From positions 1-50,766 of the forward strand of contig CAIOFF010000013.1 of assembly GCA_903857495.1 (NCBI GenBank): a stretch of DNA of 50,766 nt, in the 5' to 3' direction. The stretch is from an uncultured Holophagaceae bacterium. Lineage in GTDB: Bacteria; Acidobacteriota; Holophagae; Holophagales; Holophagaceae. Below the pieces are notes generated by a model that saw nothing but the letters and a program-made list of their open reading frames with translations, did no database searches and had not been told where the DNA came from. Below, one piece after another: positions 10,811-31,238 of this stretch (the stretch's first letter is position 1; each line of letters starts with the position of its first letter). The position numbers and the translations under genes are program-made.

Positions 10811-10896
10811 CTACCGCCCATTCTCCGGTCCCCGCTCACGTATTCGGCAATCTTTACCCAGCGCGACCTGCTGCCCGAGACTAGACTCCAGATCAC

Positions 10897-10924
10897 TCAT
10901 GTTCGGATCCTGAACTGCCGATAT
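10897..10924 (+). promoter_or_regulatory. Sigma-28 (FliA)-type promoter for the 10945 gene
   Basis: TCAT at 10897-10900, a 16-nt spacer and GCCGATAT at 10917-10924 match the FliA pattern (TMAA-N15-GCCGATAA), with 7 of 8 bases in the -10. The -10 lies 28 nt before the start codon, the same geometry as at both fliS genes in this window. Confidence 0.6.
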
Positions 10925-10944
10925 TCGTACCAAAGGGGGCGACC

Positions 10945-11526
10945 ATGGACATCGGAGCGACGACTTCCACCAATCCCTACACCTACCTGTCGGTTTATAA
11001 GAGCAGCCAGGGTTCGGCATCATCCGGTTCCTCAGCCACCGCGGTCCCTGCTATAGGCACAACCCAGGATTCGGTGGCGCTGCAGGCCCTGTCCGCCACG
11101 CTATCGAGTCAGCCGGACATCTATGACGCCAAGGGGGCCCTCAACACTTCGGCGGCCAGCCAGTACCTCTCCGACCTCACGAGCAGCCTCAAGTCATTGA
11201 CTTCGGGGAGTGGCGCTTCCGGCCTCTCCTCGTCGGCCTCATACACAGCCCTGGCACCCCAGGGTGGGCTCACCTCTGACGCGGCCGCCTCTCTCTTCGG
11301 GAACAGTGCCGCCAGCACCTCCTCCGCGTTCCCCGCTTCGGTCCTCAACCTGAATGCCAGCATGGCGCTGGCTTCGTACAACTACCAGCAGAGCCTTTCA
11401 GGTTCCACGGCCGGTGCGGCCACCACAAGTTCCACCGCAAACCCCATACCAACATCCACCATCCAGTCTGCCATCGCCTCCGCCCAGGACGCCGTCTCCT
11501 CAAGCATGTTCAACCTGATTGGCTAG
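10945..11526 (+). CDS. Unknown Ser/Thr/Ala-rich protein, probable flagellar regulon
   Basis: I do not recognise this 193-residue protein. It is rich in Ser, Ala and Thr and has almost no charged residues. It has no signal peptide. Helix-prone segments are QYLSDLTSSLKSL near residue 75 and, at the C-terminus, IQSAIASAQDAVSSSMFNLIG, which resembles the amphipathic ends of flagellar axial proteins. AAAGGGGG at 10932-10939 is a strong ribosome site, and the FliA-type promoter upstream ties it to late flagellar genes. The composition would suit a secreted, O-glycosylated substrate of the neighbouring glycosyltransferases (inference). Confidence 0.7.
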   Translation: MDIGATTSTNPYTYLSVYKSSQGSASSGSSATAVPAIGTTQDSVALQALSATLSSQPDIYDAKGALNTSAASQYLSDLTSSLKSLTSGSGASGLSSSASYTALAPQGGLTSDAAASLFGNSAASTSSAFPASVLNLNASMALASYNYQQSLSGSTAGAATTSSTANPIPTSTIQSAIASAQDAVSSSMFNLIG

Positions 11527-23769: not shown

Positions 23770-24369
23770 ATGGTAACCATTCTGAGCAACGTCGCCGCTC
23801 TGGCCGCCAGTCGCCAATTGGGCGTCAGCAAGATCGGCTTGACGACTGCCATCACCCGGCTCACCACGGGTCGGCGTGTCAACAACGCCATGGACGATGC
23901 AGCCAGCCTCACGCAAGGCAACACCTACCAGGCCAACGCGCGGGATGCCGCTGCATCGGTCGTGACCGATCAGGCCAACTACTTCATTGCCCTCAACAAT
24001 GACGGCCCGAACCTGCAGAAGACCCAGGATGCCTATCGGATGGCCGAGTTGGAGGGCGGTGGCAACACGGCCACGACGGAATACACCAACCTTGTGGCCC
24101 TTAATGGAGCCTCTTCGACCGCCGCTCTTGCGGCCATCGCCACTTCTCAGGCCACCAATGGTGCCTCCATGTCTTCCGCGCTGAGCAAAGCGCAGACCCA
24201 CGGGATCGCCGCTGAAACGAATCAGGGCATCGCCGATGCCTACCTGGGCGCTGACATGGGGGCCGAAATGGCGAACCTGACCAAATACCAGATCCTCATG
24301 CAGGCGGGCACCAGTGCCCTGAACAACGCGAACCAGTCGGCGCAGACCGTCATGGGCCTCTTCCGGTAA
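23770..24369 (+). CDS. fliC: Short flagellin 1
   Basis: At 199 residues this is a minimal flagellin. The N-terminal D0/D1 helix SNVAALAASRQLGVSKIGLT, then ITRLTTGRRVNNAMDDAA, parallels the usual NVAAL...LSSGLRINSAKDDAA. The C-terminal helix (MANLTKYQILMQAGTSALNN, then ANQSAQTVMGLFR) is the flagellin D0 end. Almost nothing is left for D2/D3: the middle is a short Gly/Thr/Ser-rich turn (GGGNTATTEYTN) that offers Ser/Thr for O-glycosylation. GGAGG precedes ATG 23770. It is first of three tandem near-identical copies. Confidence 0.92.
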   Translation: MVTILSNVAALAASRQLGVSKIGLTTAITRLTTGRRVNNAMDDAASLTQGNTYQANARDAAASVVTDQANYFIALNNDGPNLQKTQDAYRMAELEGGGNTATTEYTNLVALNGASSTAALAAIATSQATNGASMSSALSKAQTHGIAAETNQGIADAYLGADMGAEMANLTKYQILMQAGTSALNNANQSAQTVMGLFR

Positions 24370-24389
24370 GACCGTAATCTTCTCAACCC

Positions 24390-24426
24390 GGTAGCACGGA
24401 TGCTACCTAACCATTATCATGGAGGA
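24390..24426 (+). promoter_or_regulatory. Flagellin 2 leader: conserved hairpin plus SD
   Basis: GGTAGCA (24390-24396), loop CGGA, TGCTACC (24401-24407), a 13-nt linker TAACCATTATCAT, then GGAGGA (24421-24426) and ATG at 24431. Layout and loop equal those of flagellin 1, and stem pair 3 is T-A instead of C-G. The ribosome site overlaps an upstream in-frame ATG at 24419 that is therefore unlikely to be the start. Confidence 0.65.
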
Positions 24427-24430
24427 TAGT

Positions 24431-25033
24431 ATGGTTACCATTCTTAGCAACGTTGCTGCCCTGGCCGCTAGCCGCCAGTTGGGCGTCAGCAAAATCGGCC
24501 TCACCACGGCCATCACCCGCCTAACCACGGGTCGGCGTGTCAACAACGCCATGGACGATGCGGCTAGCCTCACGCAAGGTAATACGTATGAGGCCGCCGC
24601 GCGCAACGCCGCCGCATCAGTCGTGACCGATCAGGCCAACTACTTCATTGCCCTCAACAATGACGGCCCGAACCTCCAGAAGACCCAGGATGCCTATCGG
24701 ATGGCCGAGCTCGAGGGCGGTGGCAATACGGCCACGACGGAATACACCAACCTCAAGGGCACTGCGGGCGGAACCGATTCGACCGCCGCTCTTGCAGCCA
24801 TCGCCACCTCTCAGGCCACCAATGGTGCCTCCATGTCTTCCGCGCTGAGCAAGGCGCAGACTCACGGGATCGCCGCAGAAACGAATCAGGGCATCTCGGA
24901 TGCCTACCTGGGCGCAGACATGGGTGCTGAAATGGCGAACCTGACCAAGTATCAGATTCTCATGCAGGCGGGCACCAGTGCCCTGAACAACGCGAACCAG
25001 TCGGCGCAGACCGTCATGGGCCTCTTCAAGTAA
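24431..25033 (+). CDS. fliC: Short flagellin 2
   Basis: This 200-residue paralogue of flagellin 1 is nearly identical in both terminal helical regions. It differs in the central turn, which reads TNLKGTAGGTDSTAALAA in place of TNLVALNGASSTAALAA, and in a few substitutions near residue 60. Start ATG 24431 aligns with MVTILSNVAAL of copy 1. The central turn is the expected surface-exposed part and the likely glycan site, so the copies may carry different glycan densities (inference). Confidence 0.92.
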   Translation: MVTILSNVAALAASRQLGVSKIGLTTAITRLTTGRRVNNAMDDAASLTQGNTYEAAARNAAASVVTDQANYFIALNNDGPNLQKTQDAYRMAELEGGGNTATTEYTNLKGTAGGTDSTAALAAIATSQATNGASMSSALSKAQTHGIAAETNQGISDAYLGADMGAEMANLTKYQILMQAGTSALNNANQSAQTVMGLFK

Positions 25034-25051
25034 CAAGTATTCCCTCGACCC

Positions 25052-25088
25052 GGTAGCACGGAAGCTACCTAACCAGTATCATGGAGGA
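25052..25088 (+). promoter_or_regulatory. Flagellin 3 leader: conserved hairpin plus SD
   Basis: GGTAGC (25052-25057), loop ACGGAA, GCTACC (25064-25069), a 13-nt linker TAACCAGTATCAT, then GGAGGA (25083-25088) and ATG at 25093. The stem is one pair shorter because the closing A-T became A-A, so the GGA stays in an enlarged loop. Linker length is the same in all three leaders. Confidence 0.65.
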
Positions 25089-25092
25089 TAGT

Positions 25093-25692
25093 ATGGTTAC
25101 CATTCTTAGCAACGTCACAGCCCTGGCCGCCAGTCGCCAATTGGGCGTCAGCAAGATCGGCCTTACCACTGCCATCACCCGGCTCACCACGGGCCGGCGT
25201 GTCAACAACGCCATGGACGATGCGGCCAGCCTCACGCAAGGCAACACCTACCAGGCCAACGCTCGTAATGCCGCTGCATCGGTTGTGACCGATCAGGCCA
25301 ACTACTTCATCGCCCTCAACAATGATGGCCCAAACCTGCAGAAGACCCAGGATGCCTATCGGATGGCCGAGCTCGAGGGCGGTGGCAACACGGCCACGAC
25401 GGAATACACCAACCTTGTGGCCCTTAACGGAGCCAGTTCGACCGCCGCTCTTGCAGCCATTGCCACCTCTCAGGCCACCAATGGCGCATCCATGTCCTCC
25501 GCGCTGAGCAAGGCGCAGACCCACGGGATCTCCGCTGAAACGAATCAGGGCATCGCTGATGCCTACCTGGGCGCGGACATGGGCGCCGAAATGGCGAACC
25601 TGACCAAATACCAGATCCTCATGCAGGCGGGCACCAGTGCCCTGAACAACGCGAACCAGTCGGCTCAGACCGTCATGGGCCTCTTCCGGTAA
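25093..25692 (+). CDS. fliC: Short flagellin 3
   Basis: This 199-residue protein is almost the same as flagellin 1, including the central TNLVALNGASSTAAL segment. It begins MVTILSNVTALAAS, with Thr for Ala at position 9. The start ATG 25093 is set by GGAGGA and by alignment. A strong terminator hairpin follows the stop by 16 nt, so the three flagellins form one transcription block ending here. Very high nucleotide identity among copies suggests recent duplication or gene conversion. Confidence 0.92.
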   Translation: MVTILSNVTALAASRQLGVSKIGLTTAITRLTTGRRVNNAMDDAASLTQGNTYQANARNAAASVVTDQANYFIALNNDGPNLQKTQDAYRMAELEGGGNTATTEYTNLVALNGASSTAALAAIATSQATNGASMSSALSKAQTHGISAETNQGIADAYLGADMGAEMANLTKYQILMQAGTSALNNANQSAQTVMGLFR

Positions 25693-25707
25693 CTAGGAGT
25701 TTGAATT

Positions 25708-25746
25708 CCGGGAGGGGCAGATTCCATCTGCCCCTCCCGGTTGTAT
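25708..25746 (+). terminator. Terminator after the flagellin cluster
   Basis: CCGGGAGGGGCAGA (25708-25721), loop TTCCA, TCTGCCCCTCCCGG (25727-25740) is a perfect 14-bp stem followed by TTGTAT. The U-tract is weak but the stem is very stable. The sequence GAATTCC flanks the hairpin on both sides as a short direct repeat. Confidence 0.75.
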
Positions 25747-25767
25747 GAATTCCAGAAGGGAGACACC

Positions 25768-26148
25768 ATGGTTGATCAGATCACGTCCCTAAGCGGCACC
25801 CCCATGCTGGCGGTCAGTGCTTCGCTGCAGGCCACCAGCTCGCGGTCGACCTCTGCGCCCTCTATGATGGCCCCTTCTGCGCCCCAAGCCGAGGCCTCGG
25901 CGCCGAGTCCCGGATCGCAGGATGCGGCCGTCGCCCAGGTCAATCAGCACCTTCAGCAGACGCAAGCGGATCTGAAGATCCAAGTGGATCGGGGGTCCGG
26001 ACGAGCTGTCTTCCAGGTTGTTCAGGAGGGCACCGGACAGGTGCTGTTCCAGGTGCCTTCGGCCGAGGTCTTGGGGATGTCCCGCCGGGTACGCGAATTG
26101 CAGGCCGAGTCGTTGAACGCAGGGGTCTTGGTGGATAAGCAGGGCTAG
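25768..26148 (+). CDS. flaG: FlaG family flagellar protein
   Basis: The 126-residue product ends in a FlaG domain: NQHLQQTQADLKIQVDRGSG, then RAVFQVVQEGTGQVLFQVPS and a final short stretch ending GVLVDK, matching the family pattern of an amphipathic strand followed by an IP..E helix. The first 50 residues are Ser/Ala/Pro-rich and disordered. FlaG influences filament length. ATG 25768 follows AAGGGAGA. An in-frame TTG at 25741 lies in the terminator flank and is not used. It lies between flagellin and fliD, the common FlaG position. Confidence 0.85.
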   Translation: MVDQITSLSGTPMLAVSASLQATSSRSTSAPSMMAPSAPQAEASAPSPGSQDAAVAQVNQHLQQTQADLKIQVDRGSGRAVFQVVQEGTGQVLFQVPSAEVLGMSRRVRELQAESLNAGVLVDKQG

Positions 26149-26190
26149 ACTGCCCATCCCCCTTTAATCGCCTGAGGGTTGAGGTGTGGC

Positions 26191-27936
26191 ATGGTTTCAA
26201 TCACGACGAGCACAACTTCGAGCACCGCCAGCCTGAACGGGCTGAGCACGGGCATCGACACCACGGCCCTGATCAACGCCATCGTGGCTCAAAAGGCCAC
26301 TACCCTTAACCGCCTGAAGGCCCAGCAGACCCTCAACAACCAGAAGACCACATCCCTGATCTCCATCAGGACCCAACTGGGCACCCTCGTAAACAGTTTG
26401 GGGGCCCTGTCCGACAAGTTCAATGCCCGGGCCGTGACGAGCACCGACAGCAACAACACCAATGTCACCGGGTCGGCCACCGGGAACATATCGGGCAGCT
26501 ATGACCTCACCGTGAGCACGGTGGCCACCCGGGGGCGGCTCTCGGCGAGCCTCAACGGGAGTGGCAACGCCATCAACATGGCTGTGGCCAATCCGTCCAA
26601 TGCCTCCCTTTCCCCGATCTTCACGACGGGGACACCCGCCACCTTCGCCCTCCAGGGAACGGATGGGAAGGTCTACAAGATCACCCTTGATGATGCCTCC
26701 AACACCCTGAATGGCCTGCGCGACAAGATCAATGCCTTGGCCGGAAGCAGCGTCACGGCCTCGATCGTGAACCTAGGCAAGGGTGCCAACCCCTATCAGC
26801 TGGTGATCACGGCGAAGGATACCGGCACCGGGAGCACCGGAGGCAAGGTCAGCCTCGCCGACATCACCACCAATGATGGCGTCACCTCGGCCAACAACCT
26901 GGGGATCCTTGCCGGCACGGTGGACAACCTGACGACGCCCACGCAGATCACCCTGGGGGGACTCACCTCCTCGGGGACCGGGGTCGCCACAGATGCCAAC
27001 TTCACCCTCAACGGCATCAACCTCACCCGCAGCACCAATGTGGTCAAGGACGCCGTGGATGGCCTGACCCTCACCCTCAAGCAGGGGGGCCAGACCGGAA
27101 CCACGACGCTGACGGTCGGCCAGGACACGGCCGGCGCTAGCACGGCCCTGCAGACCGTCATCACCAACTACAACAAGCTGGTGACGGACTACAAGACAGC
27201 CTCCACGCCCACCAAGAATGCGGATGGCTCTGTCGCCCTGGCGCCCTTGTCCAACGATGCCACCATGCGGAACTTGATGAACAGCCTCAGAGCCGCCATG
27301 CAGGGCGGTTCCGCGGGCCTGTCAAGCGGCGCGACCTATAAACTCTTGTCTAATGTAGGAGTCACCAACCAGTCCGATGGCACCCTCTACCTGAATAGCT
27401 ATACGTTCCAGCAGGCCATGAACAGCGATCCGGCCTCGGTACAAAGCCTCTTCACTTTCTTGGGAACCTCCACCAGCCCTGCCGTGACAGTCAAGAGTGG
27501 GGGCTCCCAGACCGCCACGGGCAGTGTGGATTTCGCCATCACGGACTCGGGCGGCGGGAACTTGGTGGGGACCCTGACCCAAGGCACCACCACCGTCACC
27601 TCCATCCCGGTCACCAACGGGATCCTCTCTGGCGCGGGAATTTTTGCCGGGTTGGGCCTTGGGGTCACCGGCACCGGCACGGGCACCTTGACCCTCAGCC
27701 GGGGTGCGGGACAGGCGGCCTCGGACCTCCTGTCCACCTACACGGGTACGACCGGAGGCATCGCCAACCTGCTGAGCACCATCACCTCCCAGAACACCAA
27801 CTTGGTCACTCAGATCGCTCAGGCGCAGTCAAGGTTGAACCAGGAGACGGCGGATCTGAAGGATAAATTCGCCCAGATGGAGGCCATTGTCGGCCAGATG
27901 AAAGCGACGACGAGTTCCTTGTTCTCAACCTCTTAG
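26191..27936 (+). CDS. fliD: Flagellar filament cap protein FliD (HAP2)
   Basis: This 581-residue protein opens with the FliD signature SLNGLSTGIDTTALINAIVA and an N-terminal helix (LNRLKAQQTLNNQKTTSLIS). The central domains contain SASLNGSGNAIN and many Thr/Gly/Asn repeats. The C-terminal helices (LLSTITSQNTNLVTQIAQAQ ... ETADLKDKFAQMEAIVGQM) form the FliD_C coiled coil. FliD caps the growing filament. ATG 26191 has TGAGG upstream. The TTG at 26179 is unlikely. The high Thr/Ser content makes it another possible glycosylation target. Confidence 0.93.
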   Translation: MVSITTSTTSSTASLNGLSTGIDTTALINAIVAQKATTLNRLKAQQTLNNQKTTSLISIRTQLGTLVNSLGALSDKFNARAVTSTDSNNTNVTGSATGNISGSYDLTVSTVATRGRLSASLNGSGNAINMAVANPSNASLSPIFTTGTPATFALQGTDGKVYKITLDDASNTLNGLRDKINALAGSSVTASIVNLGKGANPYQLVITAKDTGTGSTGGKVSLADITTNDGVTSANNLGILAGTVDNLTTPTQITLGGLTSSGTGVATDANFTLNGINLTRSTNVVKDAVDGLTLTLKQGGQTGTTTLTVGQDTAGASTALQTVITNYNKLVTDYKTASTPTKNADGSVALAPLSNDATMRNLMNSLRAAMQGGSAGLSSGATYKLLSNVGVTNQSDGTLYLNSYTFQQAMNSDPASVQSLFTFLGTSTSPAVTVKSGGSQTATGSVDFAITDSGGGNLVGTLTQGTTTVTSIPVTNGILSGAGIFAGLGLGVTGTGTGTLTLSRGAGQAASDLLSTYTGTTGGIANLLSTITSQNTNLVTQIAQAQSRLNQETADLKDKFAQMEAIVGQMKATTSSLFSTS

Positions 27937-27949
27937 AGGGTTCTCGTTC

Positions 27950-27976
27950 TCATGTCCGACCGGGATGTGTCGATAA
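27950..27976 (+). promoter_or_regulatory. Sigma-28 (FliA)-type promoter for fliS copy 1
   Basis: TCAT (27950-27953), 15 nt, GTCGATAA (27969-27976). The -10 differs from GCCGATAA at one base. Its first base lies 27 nt before the fliS start codon, the same as at fliS copy 2. The promoter is just downstream of the fliD stop. Confidence 0.65.
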
Positions 27977-27995
27977 AATACAGCAGGGGTCAACC

Positions 27996-28421
27996 ATGAA
28001 TGCTTACGCCAGATCTGCTGATGCCTACCTCAGCCAGCGTATCCTCGGGACCAGCCCCGAAGAGCAGGCGGCCCTCATCATGGAGGCAGGACAGCTTCAT
28101 CTGGGCAGGGCCATCCAGGCCTTGGACCGGAGCGATCCCACTGCTGCAACCCGGAGCTACATTCGTGTCTCGGAAGTCATCCAGGAGGCCACCCTCCGTC
28201 TGGACCTTGAAGGAGGCAGCGAGCTGGCCCACAACCTCGCAAAGTTGTATGACTGGTGGATACGGGAGGTCATGGCCGCCAGCCGGGTCAAGGATACGAC
28301 TCGCCTGGCCGCCGTGGCGAATGGCATGGGCGAGATCCGTCAGGCCTGGGAGCAGTACCATAAGAAGAAGCTTGGAGCTAGCGGAGCTCCCGCTTTCCAG
28401 CTTGGGAACCGGGTCGGCTAA
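27996..28421 (+). CDS. fliS: Flagellar export chaperone FliS, copy 1
   Basis: The 141-residue length is typical of FliS. ADAYLSQRILGTSPEEQAAL gives the start of the FliS fold, with GQLHLGRAIQALDRSDPTAA and LRLDLEGGSELAHNLAKLYD, then WWIREVMAA, as the core helices. FliS binds the flagellin C-terminal helix in the cytoplasm and stops early polymerisation. AGGGG precedes the ATG. A second copy is at 30813. The gene is followed by a convergent methyltransferase 50 bp away. Confidence 0.9.
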   Translation: MNAYARSADAYLSQRILGTSPEEQAALIMEAGQLHLGRAIQALDRSDPTAATRSYIRVSEVIQEATLRLDLEGGSELAHNLAKLYDWWIREVMAASRVKDTTRLAAVANGMGEIRQAWEQYHKKKLGASGAPAFQLGNRVG

Positions 28422-30500: not shown

Positions 30501-30812
30501 CTGGTCTTCCTTTCTCCTGGTCTTCCGCAGGAAAGCGGGGTGCGAATTCCTAGCATCATCACATCAAATTGAGCCGCCGGGGCAGTGGCCTGTCTCCGCC
30601 CTGAGACCTCCGATACAGGGTTTGGCTGGATGTTCCAGAGTCCAGAGCCTCTGGCCGAGGTTCGGCAAGGGGACAAGGGCGGGTGACTGCGTTCGGAGGG
30701 AGGCCCTCGTGGGCCAGATGAGGGGTGTGCCAGATCCACTTTTCAAGGCCAGGAGGATCGTTGTTCTCAAGCCCGGTGGGGGTCTGTCGATACAAGCCTG
30801 TGGGGGACGACC
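30501..30812. other. Divergent intergenic region, 312 bp
   Basis: This lies between the minus-strand glycosyltransferase and fliS copy 2. It contains the FliA-type promoter for fliS2 at 30767-30793. I see no promoter for the glycosyltransferase and no coding frame with support. Short antisense frames here are shadows. Confidence 0.45.
30767..30793 (+). promoter_or_regulatory. Sigma-28 (FliA)-type promoter for fliS copy 2
   Basis: TCAA (30767-30770), 15 nt, GTCGATAC (30786-30793). The -10 begins 27 nt before the fliS2 start codon. Its match to the fliS1 promoter in sequence, spacing and position is the strongest argument that these are real FliA sites. Confidence 0.68.
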
Positions 30813-31238
30813 ATGAATGATCACGCCAGCTCTACCGATGCCGAGCGCAGCCAGCAGATGCTCGGGGCCAGCCCCGAAGAGCAGGCTGCCCTCATCATGG
30901 AGGCAGGGCAGCTGCACCTGGGCAGGGCCATCCAGGCCTTGGACCTGAATGACCTCTCTGCCGCAACCCGGAGCTACATTCGGGTCTCCGCAGCCATCCA
31001 GGAGGCTACTCTCCGCCTGGACCTTGAGGGTGGAGGAGAATTGGCCCACAACCTGGCGAAGCTGTACGAGTGGTGGAAGCAGGAGATCATGGCCGCCAGC
31101 CGAACCAAAGATACCCAGCGGCTGGCCGCGGTGGCCCAGAGCATGGGCGAGATCCGCCAGACCTGGATACAGCTCCACGAGATGAAGCTCGGAACCACGG
31201 GAGCTTCCGCCCCCCAGCCTGGGAAGCCAGTCGCATGA
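30813..31238 (+). CDS. fliS: Flagellar export chaperone FliS, copy 2
   Basis: This 141-residue paralogue of the FliS at 27996 keeps the core (GASPEEQAALIMEAGQLHLG, RAIQALDLNDLSAATRSYIR and a final helix block ending YEWWKQEIMAASR), but the first 15 residues and the C-terminal tail differ. GGGGGA precedes the ATG. Its stop overlaps the start of the next small gene (ATGA), an arrangement seen for fliS-fliT. Having two FliS proteins with three flagellins may mean different clients, or recent duplication of the block. Confidence 0.9.
   Translation: MNDHASSTDAERSQQMLGASPEEQAALIMEAGQLHLGRAIQALDLNDLSAATRSYIRVSAAIQEATLRLDLEGGGELAHNLAKLYEWWKQEIMAASRTKDTQRLAAVAQSMGEIRQTWIQLHEMKLGTTGASAPQPGKPVA

Follow-up and report, generated by a model that had tools for sequence, protein, structure and literature searches.

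We found a FliA (sigma-28)-type promoter, CTCAT-N16-GCCGATAT (10896..10924, forward strand; -35 box 10896-10900, -10 box 10917-10924), directly upstream of an open reading frame (ORF; 10945..11526, forward strand) that encodes a 193-residue member of an unnamed protein family. The promoter was recognised from the sequence of the window (the whole stretch of 50,766 nt analysed here) and from its conservation in homologues. Most copies of the gene carry this flagellar-type promoter, and the protein is therefore probably made together with the flagellum. We propose, giving the reading as a whole about an even chance, that the ORF belongs to the FliA regulon and encodes an exported accessory protein. 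FliA would transcribe the single gene at the late stage of FliS, and its product, low in charge, rich in Ser/Thr and probably disordered, would be secreted by the type III apparatus of the flagellum. Its conserved N-terminus, its flagellin-like hydrophobic tail or both would direct it there, and its site of action would be extracellular or on the surface of the filament. Disorder, export and an outside function are our guess; the absence of cysteine, the low charge and, by eye, the absence of a Sec-type N-terminus fit export.

The initial annotation had placed the promoter 28 nt before the start codon, and this placement is exact: TCAT lies at 10897-10900, followed by a 16-nt spacer, GCCGATAT at 10917-10924 and the ATG at 10945, the 28 nt being counted from the first -10 base to the ATG. 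Both boxes thus stand at proper spacing for a sigma-28 promoter directly before the ORF, and a likely ribosome-binding site (AGGGGG, 10934..10939, forward strand) can be read from the sequence. The two fliS genes of the window (27996..28421, PF02561 E=2.1e-19, and 30813..31238, PF02561 E=1.7e-17, both on the forward strand) provide yardsticks, with the FliA-type promoters TCAT-N15-GTCGATAA (27950..27976) and TCAA-N15-GTCGATAC (30767..30793), also on the forward strand. Near-identity to both had been claimed; it stands in so far as the -10 box begins 27 nt before the ATG in each, but not for the spacers, which are 1 nt shorter (N15), nor for the second -35 box, which reads TCAA.

TCAT-N16-GNCGATA occurs once in the whole 50,766-nt window against 0.02 expected, and TCAWG-N14/15-GYCGATA gives seven matches in the 3.7-Mb genome to which the window belongs versus three in the reversed control. 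At six of these seven sites a start codon follows 8-21 nt past the -10 core, namely that of ORF 10945-11526, of the two fliS genes, of a rod-type gene (Flg_bbr_C, with its start merely 8 nt after the site), of a YjfB_motility gene and of a 75-aa ORF; no ORF starts within 8-21 nt of the -10 core at the seventh. The -10 core GYCGATA by itself is not below chance frequency (6 found, 4.73 expected), so the case rests on the entire site and its conservation. The same genome carries a fliA gene (TIGR02479 E=1.4e-77, above the cut-off; G000:C53, about 3 kb from flhA), and we infer that FliA itself reads the promoter of the ORF.

The product is rich in Ser, Thr, Ala and Gly (34% Ser+Thr) and is devoid of Cys, Trp, His, Arg and Glu. 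The early description of a near-chargeless protein is accurate (10 charged residues, 7 D and 3 K, in 193 aa), and so is the statement that it belongs to no known family. Pfam and NCBIfam gave no match at E <= 1 for the 10 family members searched, PHROGs none for five members and the phage and plasmid collections none for P0001, and the PDB profile search yielded no significant relative (best E=0.64, to a fibroin, which we regard as chance). Flagellin_N and Flagellin_C domains were absent from the 10 family members searched, PF14070 (YjfB_motility) was not matched in 10 family members, and a profile comparison with the local flagellins (without the contig-cut flagellin L078) and YjfB revealed no significant similarity. 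By Pfam, NCBIfam and these local comparisons, the structural flagellar families do not include this small protein. AlphaFold2 predictions for five sequences had a mean pLDDT of 36, and a helix at residues 170-192 is drawn only in this very-low-confidence model. The amphipathic C-terminal helix like that of axial proteins, suggested earlier, found no confirmation, in flagellin profile similarity or otherwise: in none of 14 members does the C-terminal 20-residue stretch have a higher helical moment than shuffled sequences (for the window protein it was reached by 0.29 of the shuffles, and the lowest such fraction among the 14 was 0.17). Alignments reveal a conserved N-terminal region (10945..10989, forward strand), here MDIGATTSTNPYTYL, with MDIGSASALALYNYQ or similar in several homologues.

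Homologues were found in a single lineage, and the likely FliA regulon of the Acidobacteriota thereby gains an unnamed, lineage-specific family. With the window's own genome counted throughout, a single-sequence search matched 9 and a profile search 11 of 100 related genomes, and the profile search over the 77 genomes of the GTDB family gave a core family of 14 copies in 13 genomes. At least 7 of 396 genomes in a phylum sample matched (profile A3, the best <=8 candidates per genome being scored), all of them in the GTDB family Holophagaceae among the matches listed, and those near copies whose records carry a name come from Holophagaceae and Geothrix MAGs. These comparisons demonstrate, for the sampled sequences, a restriction to one lineage. 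All 14 core members lack Cys and have 2.6-6.4% charged residues and 20-39% Ser+Thr; they share the N-terminal start M-x-[IV]-[GS], and their C-terminal tails are hydrophobic (LNLLG, for example).

A chance ORF in GC-rich DNA, preceded by a chance promoter match, would agree with the unremarkable frequency of the -10 core alone and with the dN/dS of 0.69 in the closest pair (window versus the copy in G045). This explanation is next to negligible, since the frame is open over 174-216 codons in all 14 core copies (in four of which GTG starts were picked to suit the alignment), dN/dS is 0.06-0.31 in nine of ten hand-picked pairs and the promoter spacing is fixed. The low ratios in these chosen pairs also speak against an untranslated frame, which the initial annotation had named as something that would refute its proposal, and demonstrate, at the sequence level, constraint on the protein.

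In the 14 core copies the -10 sequence CCGA is invariant, the box being set at the best match near the start, and this box ends 20-21 nt before the start codon in 13 of them (30 nt in G102). T[CAT]AT is found exactly 16 nt upstream of the -10 box in 13 copies (TCAT in 10; the copy in G037 has no clear -35 box), although the copies lie in several different gene neighbourhoods, and the columns of the spacer are mostly variable. The conservation of the -10 box is partly by construction because the box was placed at the best match; the fixed 16-nt spacing to the -35 box is not. A promoter score of >=9 of 12 was reached by 13 of the 14 core copies versus 1.7% of shuffled upstream regions, and a score of >=9 of 11, among 194 ORF upstream regions of the same loci, by 9 of 13 family ORFs and by 1 of the remaining 181 (the control ORFs, in sets of 161 and 194, were called by a simple program, and some are certainly spurious). 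As far as sequence comparison goes, this demonstrates both the promoter and its conservation.

We observed an association with flagellar genes. Flagellin_N (which is also matched by FlgL) or FlhA is present in 59 of the 77 genomes, and the family occurs in 27 of these 59 and in none of the other 18 (Fisher p=1.4e-4, kinship ignored; the 27 exclude a remnant in G060 and a weak match in G016 with E=0.92, and p=1.3e-4 with G060). Measured against FlhA alone, all 13 core genomes have FlhA versus 55 of 77 overall (p=0.008). In the sampled genomes a restriction to those with flagellar genes is thereby demonstrated. At the profile sensitivity used, 32 of the 59 genomes with flagellin or FlhA have no family gene, and for this reason the protein is not a conserved structural part of the flagellum. 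The initial proposal of a new late flagellar protein can thus be kept in part: the FliA-type promoter conserved in most copies, the occurrence only in genomes with flagellar genes and the purifying selection in nine of ten chosen pairs agree with it, but a structural role does not agree with the many relatives that lack the gene. Judged from sequence, the ORF is a translated gene under selection, yet an accessory one. As a separate observation, flhA and fliA on contig G060:C246 have coordinates and scores identical to those on G000:C53; G060 is of another genus and also has copies of its own, and G060:C246 is probably a cross-binned contig.

The initial annotation proposed to check conservation next to flagellin loci, which is confined to the window and G045 (2 of 13 core genomes, as far as the contigs show), where the gene lies within about 15 kb of flagellin and sugar-modification genes. 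Another neighbourhood is common to G012, G014, G034, G037 and G038 and a third to G054 and G102, the copies of G020, G004 and G058 lie elsewhere and the contig of G112 is too short to tell. The suggested glycosylation has no support beyond the same neighbourhood argument in 2 of 13 core genomes. Genes read by eye indicate that most neighbourhoods are non-flagellar, and no neighbour gene is common to all copies as an operon partner. A FliA-controlled gene whose product is not exported by the flagellum and has a non-flagellar function (e.g. in the surface or matrix behaviour of swimming cells) would suit such neighbourhoods and the finding that 10 of the 18 genomes lacking both FlhA and flagellin still encode a FliA that passes the curated threshold, but the family gene is found in none of those 18 and we consider this explanation very improbable. 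The ten FliA-bearing genomes are G006, G024, G015, G008, G041, G007, G025, G005, G018 and G103; in G006, G041 and G025 a small gene whose product starts MPFTLSL begins 13 nt after a FliA-like site.

Small neighbour proteins (of about 112, 150 and 167 aa) accompany the family gene in several genomes. For the 150-aa kind (L024, L026, L032), FliA-like sites stand about 61-62 nt ahead of the gene in G014 and G012 (two of the three rows), and the site in G038 comes from the genus scan. In the window, ORF 10945-11526 is 12 kb from the flagellin genes, which are three tandem, very similar short genes of 199-204 aa (23770..25692, forward strand; 23770-24369, 24419-25033 and 25081-25692; Flagellin_N/C; tails VMGLFR/VMGLFK). 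They are followed by a small gene that by eye is FlaG (25741-26148), fliD (26179-27936) and the two fliS paralogues, so that the flagellar order covers 23770-28421 and 30813-31238.

The proposed exported accessory protein has its closest known parallels in FspA and the Fed proteins of Campylobacter jejuni, which are sigma-28-dependent and non-structural and for which flagellum-dependent secretion was reported (PMC9856085, PMC5223770). Both groups consist of small, non-flagellar proteins with a sigma-28 promoter, and the C. jejuni proteins are described there as not needed for motility, as the family is accessory here (PMC9856085, PMC5223770). Even the flagellum-secreted proteins of C. jejuni are reported to lack a common signal sequence (PMC5223770). 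The two differ in phylum and in composition, FspA being acidic and the Holophagaceae family nearly uncharged and Ser/Thr-rich, and secretion was reported for C. jejuni whereas the Holophagaceae family is known from sequence alone; they are likened by function, not by descent. If export is true, the family would be a soil/sediment equivalent of the proteins that Campylobacter secretes through its flagellum. A literature search found no paper on the Ser/Thr-rich family, which is no proof of its absence from print, and nothing on the flagellar regulon of the Acidobacteriota.

CTCAT-N16-GCCGAT can serve as a working motif for the lineage and, combined with the distance to the start, led to a missed family member. 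CTCAT-N15/16-GCCGATA gave 53 matches in 34 of the 47 genus genomes (4 in the reversed control), of which 30 loci were inspected: seven sites precede small FliA-type proteins, nine one repeated longer ORF, three another small gene and 11 others. The site pattern alone is not a flagellar marker, because most of the 30 inspected loci precede other genes. In the nine loci L049, L050, L055-L059, L064 and L069, CTCATAG.TTAC...GCCGATA lies about 38-45 nt before the longer ORF, which starts MK[LI]TLQVDGAL. The seven small-protein loci comprise two of the Ser/Thr-rich family (one being the window), three of YjfB type, a 61/69-aa protein and the 150-aa kind. At L072 (G029) the promoter match precedes a 156-aa protein that earlier searches had overlooked, which can be aligned with the family along most of its sequence and ends in LNLLA.

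Once this promoter-found relative had joined the profile, a B subfamily surfaced that the first profile, A1, had missed and that A3 had also missed in those listed genomes of the phylum sample which carry it. The extended profile matches 28 of the 77 GTDB-family genomes at E <= 1e-3 (14 by construction and one the broken G060 remnant), 13 genomes with intact copies being gained by it alone. Profile scores are composition-biased (L072 24.6 bits, bias term 35.8), and weak extension members therefore also rest on the protein ends and the promoter. A CTCA[TAC]-N16 site scoring >=9 of 11 was found in 10 of the 13 newly gained genomes; counted by copy, and with the duplicate L110 dropped, 14 of 18 extension copies score >=9 of 11 (13 of 17 without L072's own copy). 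The copies without an exact site are those of G040 (17-base spacer), G111 (15-base spacer and weaker -35 box), G023 (frame fused to the upstream gene) and G060. Because several of the extension copies are closely related (G002, G032 and G046; G010 and G039), the counts are not independent events. We also observed that in G023 (L103, G023:C48) a single reading frame joins the B-type protein to a small MDAL... protein that is usually encoded just upstream, hinting at a linked function of the two, and that the G060 remnant (G060:C163:16118-16318, L108) keeps 28 residues of the N-terminus, followed by a stop, and a detached C-terminal piece, behind a weak promoter.

The protein ends in the pentapeptide FNLIG (11509..11523, forward strand), with LNLLG, LNLLA, LSLLA and the like in homologues, which resembles flagellin tails such as VMGLFR. 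The pattern [ILVMF]-x-[LMI]-[LFIM]-[RQGAK], composed like all tail patterns here after the tails had been seen, fits the last five residues of 15 of 15 members (the 14 core members and L072) and of 13 of 13 flagellins examined (a subset, since L075, L076, L079, L080 and L082 were not picked up by the start pattern), and among 161 control ORF products it fits only the three window flagellins. FliS is reported to bind the C-terminal D0 segment of flagellin (PMC7248283), which suggests, by analogy, a link with the family tail. The product might accordingly be a minor filament part (decorating the surface or sitting at a junction) whose C-terminal tail mediates assembly with flagellin and which one of the two FliS chaperones may bind; the 12-kb distance to the window's flagellin genes also fits. 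Like flagellin, it would be a late flagellar product. On the other side, the family has no Flagellin_N/C match, profile similarity, flagellin-type N-terminus or amphipathic excess, the gene is missing from those 32 of 59 flagellated relatives, and it is near flagellin genes only in the window and G045, all of which makes a filament part unlikely.

A FliA-dependent protein that stays in the cytoplasm and regulates or chaperones late flagellar assembly, e.g. in the manner of the anti-sigma factor FlgM or of the small protein YjfB, is rather unlikely as well. The product is small and low in charge, and YjfB genes of the same genomes share its promoter type and have similar first four residues and a similar tail: the four YjfB-type genes, encoding a putative motility protein (PF14070, the match being checked for two of the four), have this promoter type in common, start with [MV]-[DEN]-[IV]-[ST] and end in [ILV]-D-x-x-A. 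However, YjfB has 57 aa versus 156-216 in the Ser/Thr-rich family, the profiles have no significant similarity to the local YjfB proteins, Pfam has no match at E <= 1 in 10 members and the gene is present in under half of the relatives with flagellar genes.

The preferred reading of an exported accessory protein could be part of a wider scheme, which we consider quite unlikely. Unrelated small FliA-driven proteins of the Holophagaceae (the Ser/Thr-rich family, YjfB, the 75-aa and the 61/69-aa proteins) would share the tail [ILVMF]-[DN]-x-x-[AG] as a flagellin-like recognition tag for the export machinery or for FliS-type chaperones, and the flagellum would also serve to secrete fast-evolving proteins rich in Ser and Thr. 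The 150-aa FliA-type kind has no such tail (0 of 3), nor do both FliS proteins and a 116-aa ORF behind similar sites. This second tail, likewise post hoc, was seen at promoter matches in the family, the four YjfB-type proteins, the 75-aa, 61/69-aa and rod-type proteins and in none of 161 controls, and in the inspected loci the four small-protein kinds at canonical distance after a FliA-type site all end in it. A stricter form of the tail is present in 16 of 19 extension rows (including one duplicate and one remnant), in three of four YjfB proteins and in five of six and four of six members of two small neighbour kinds.
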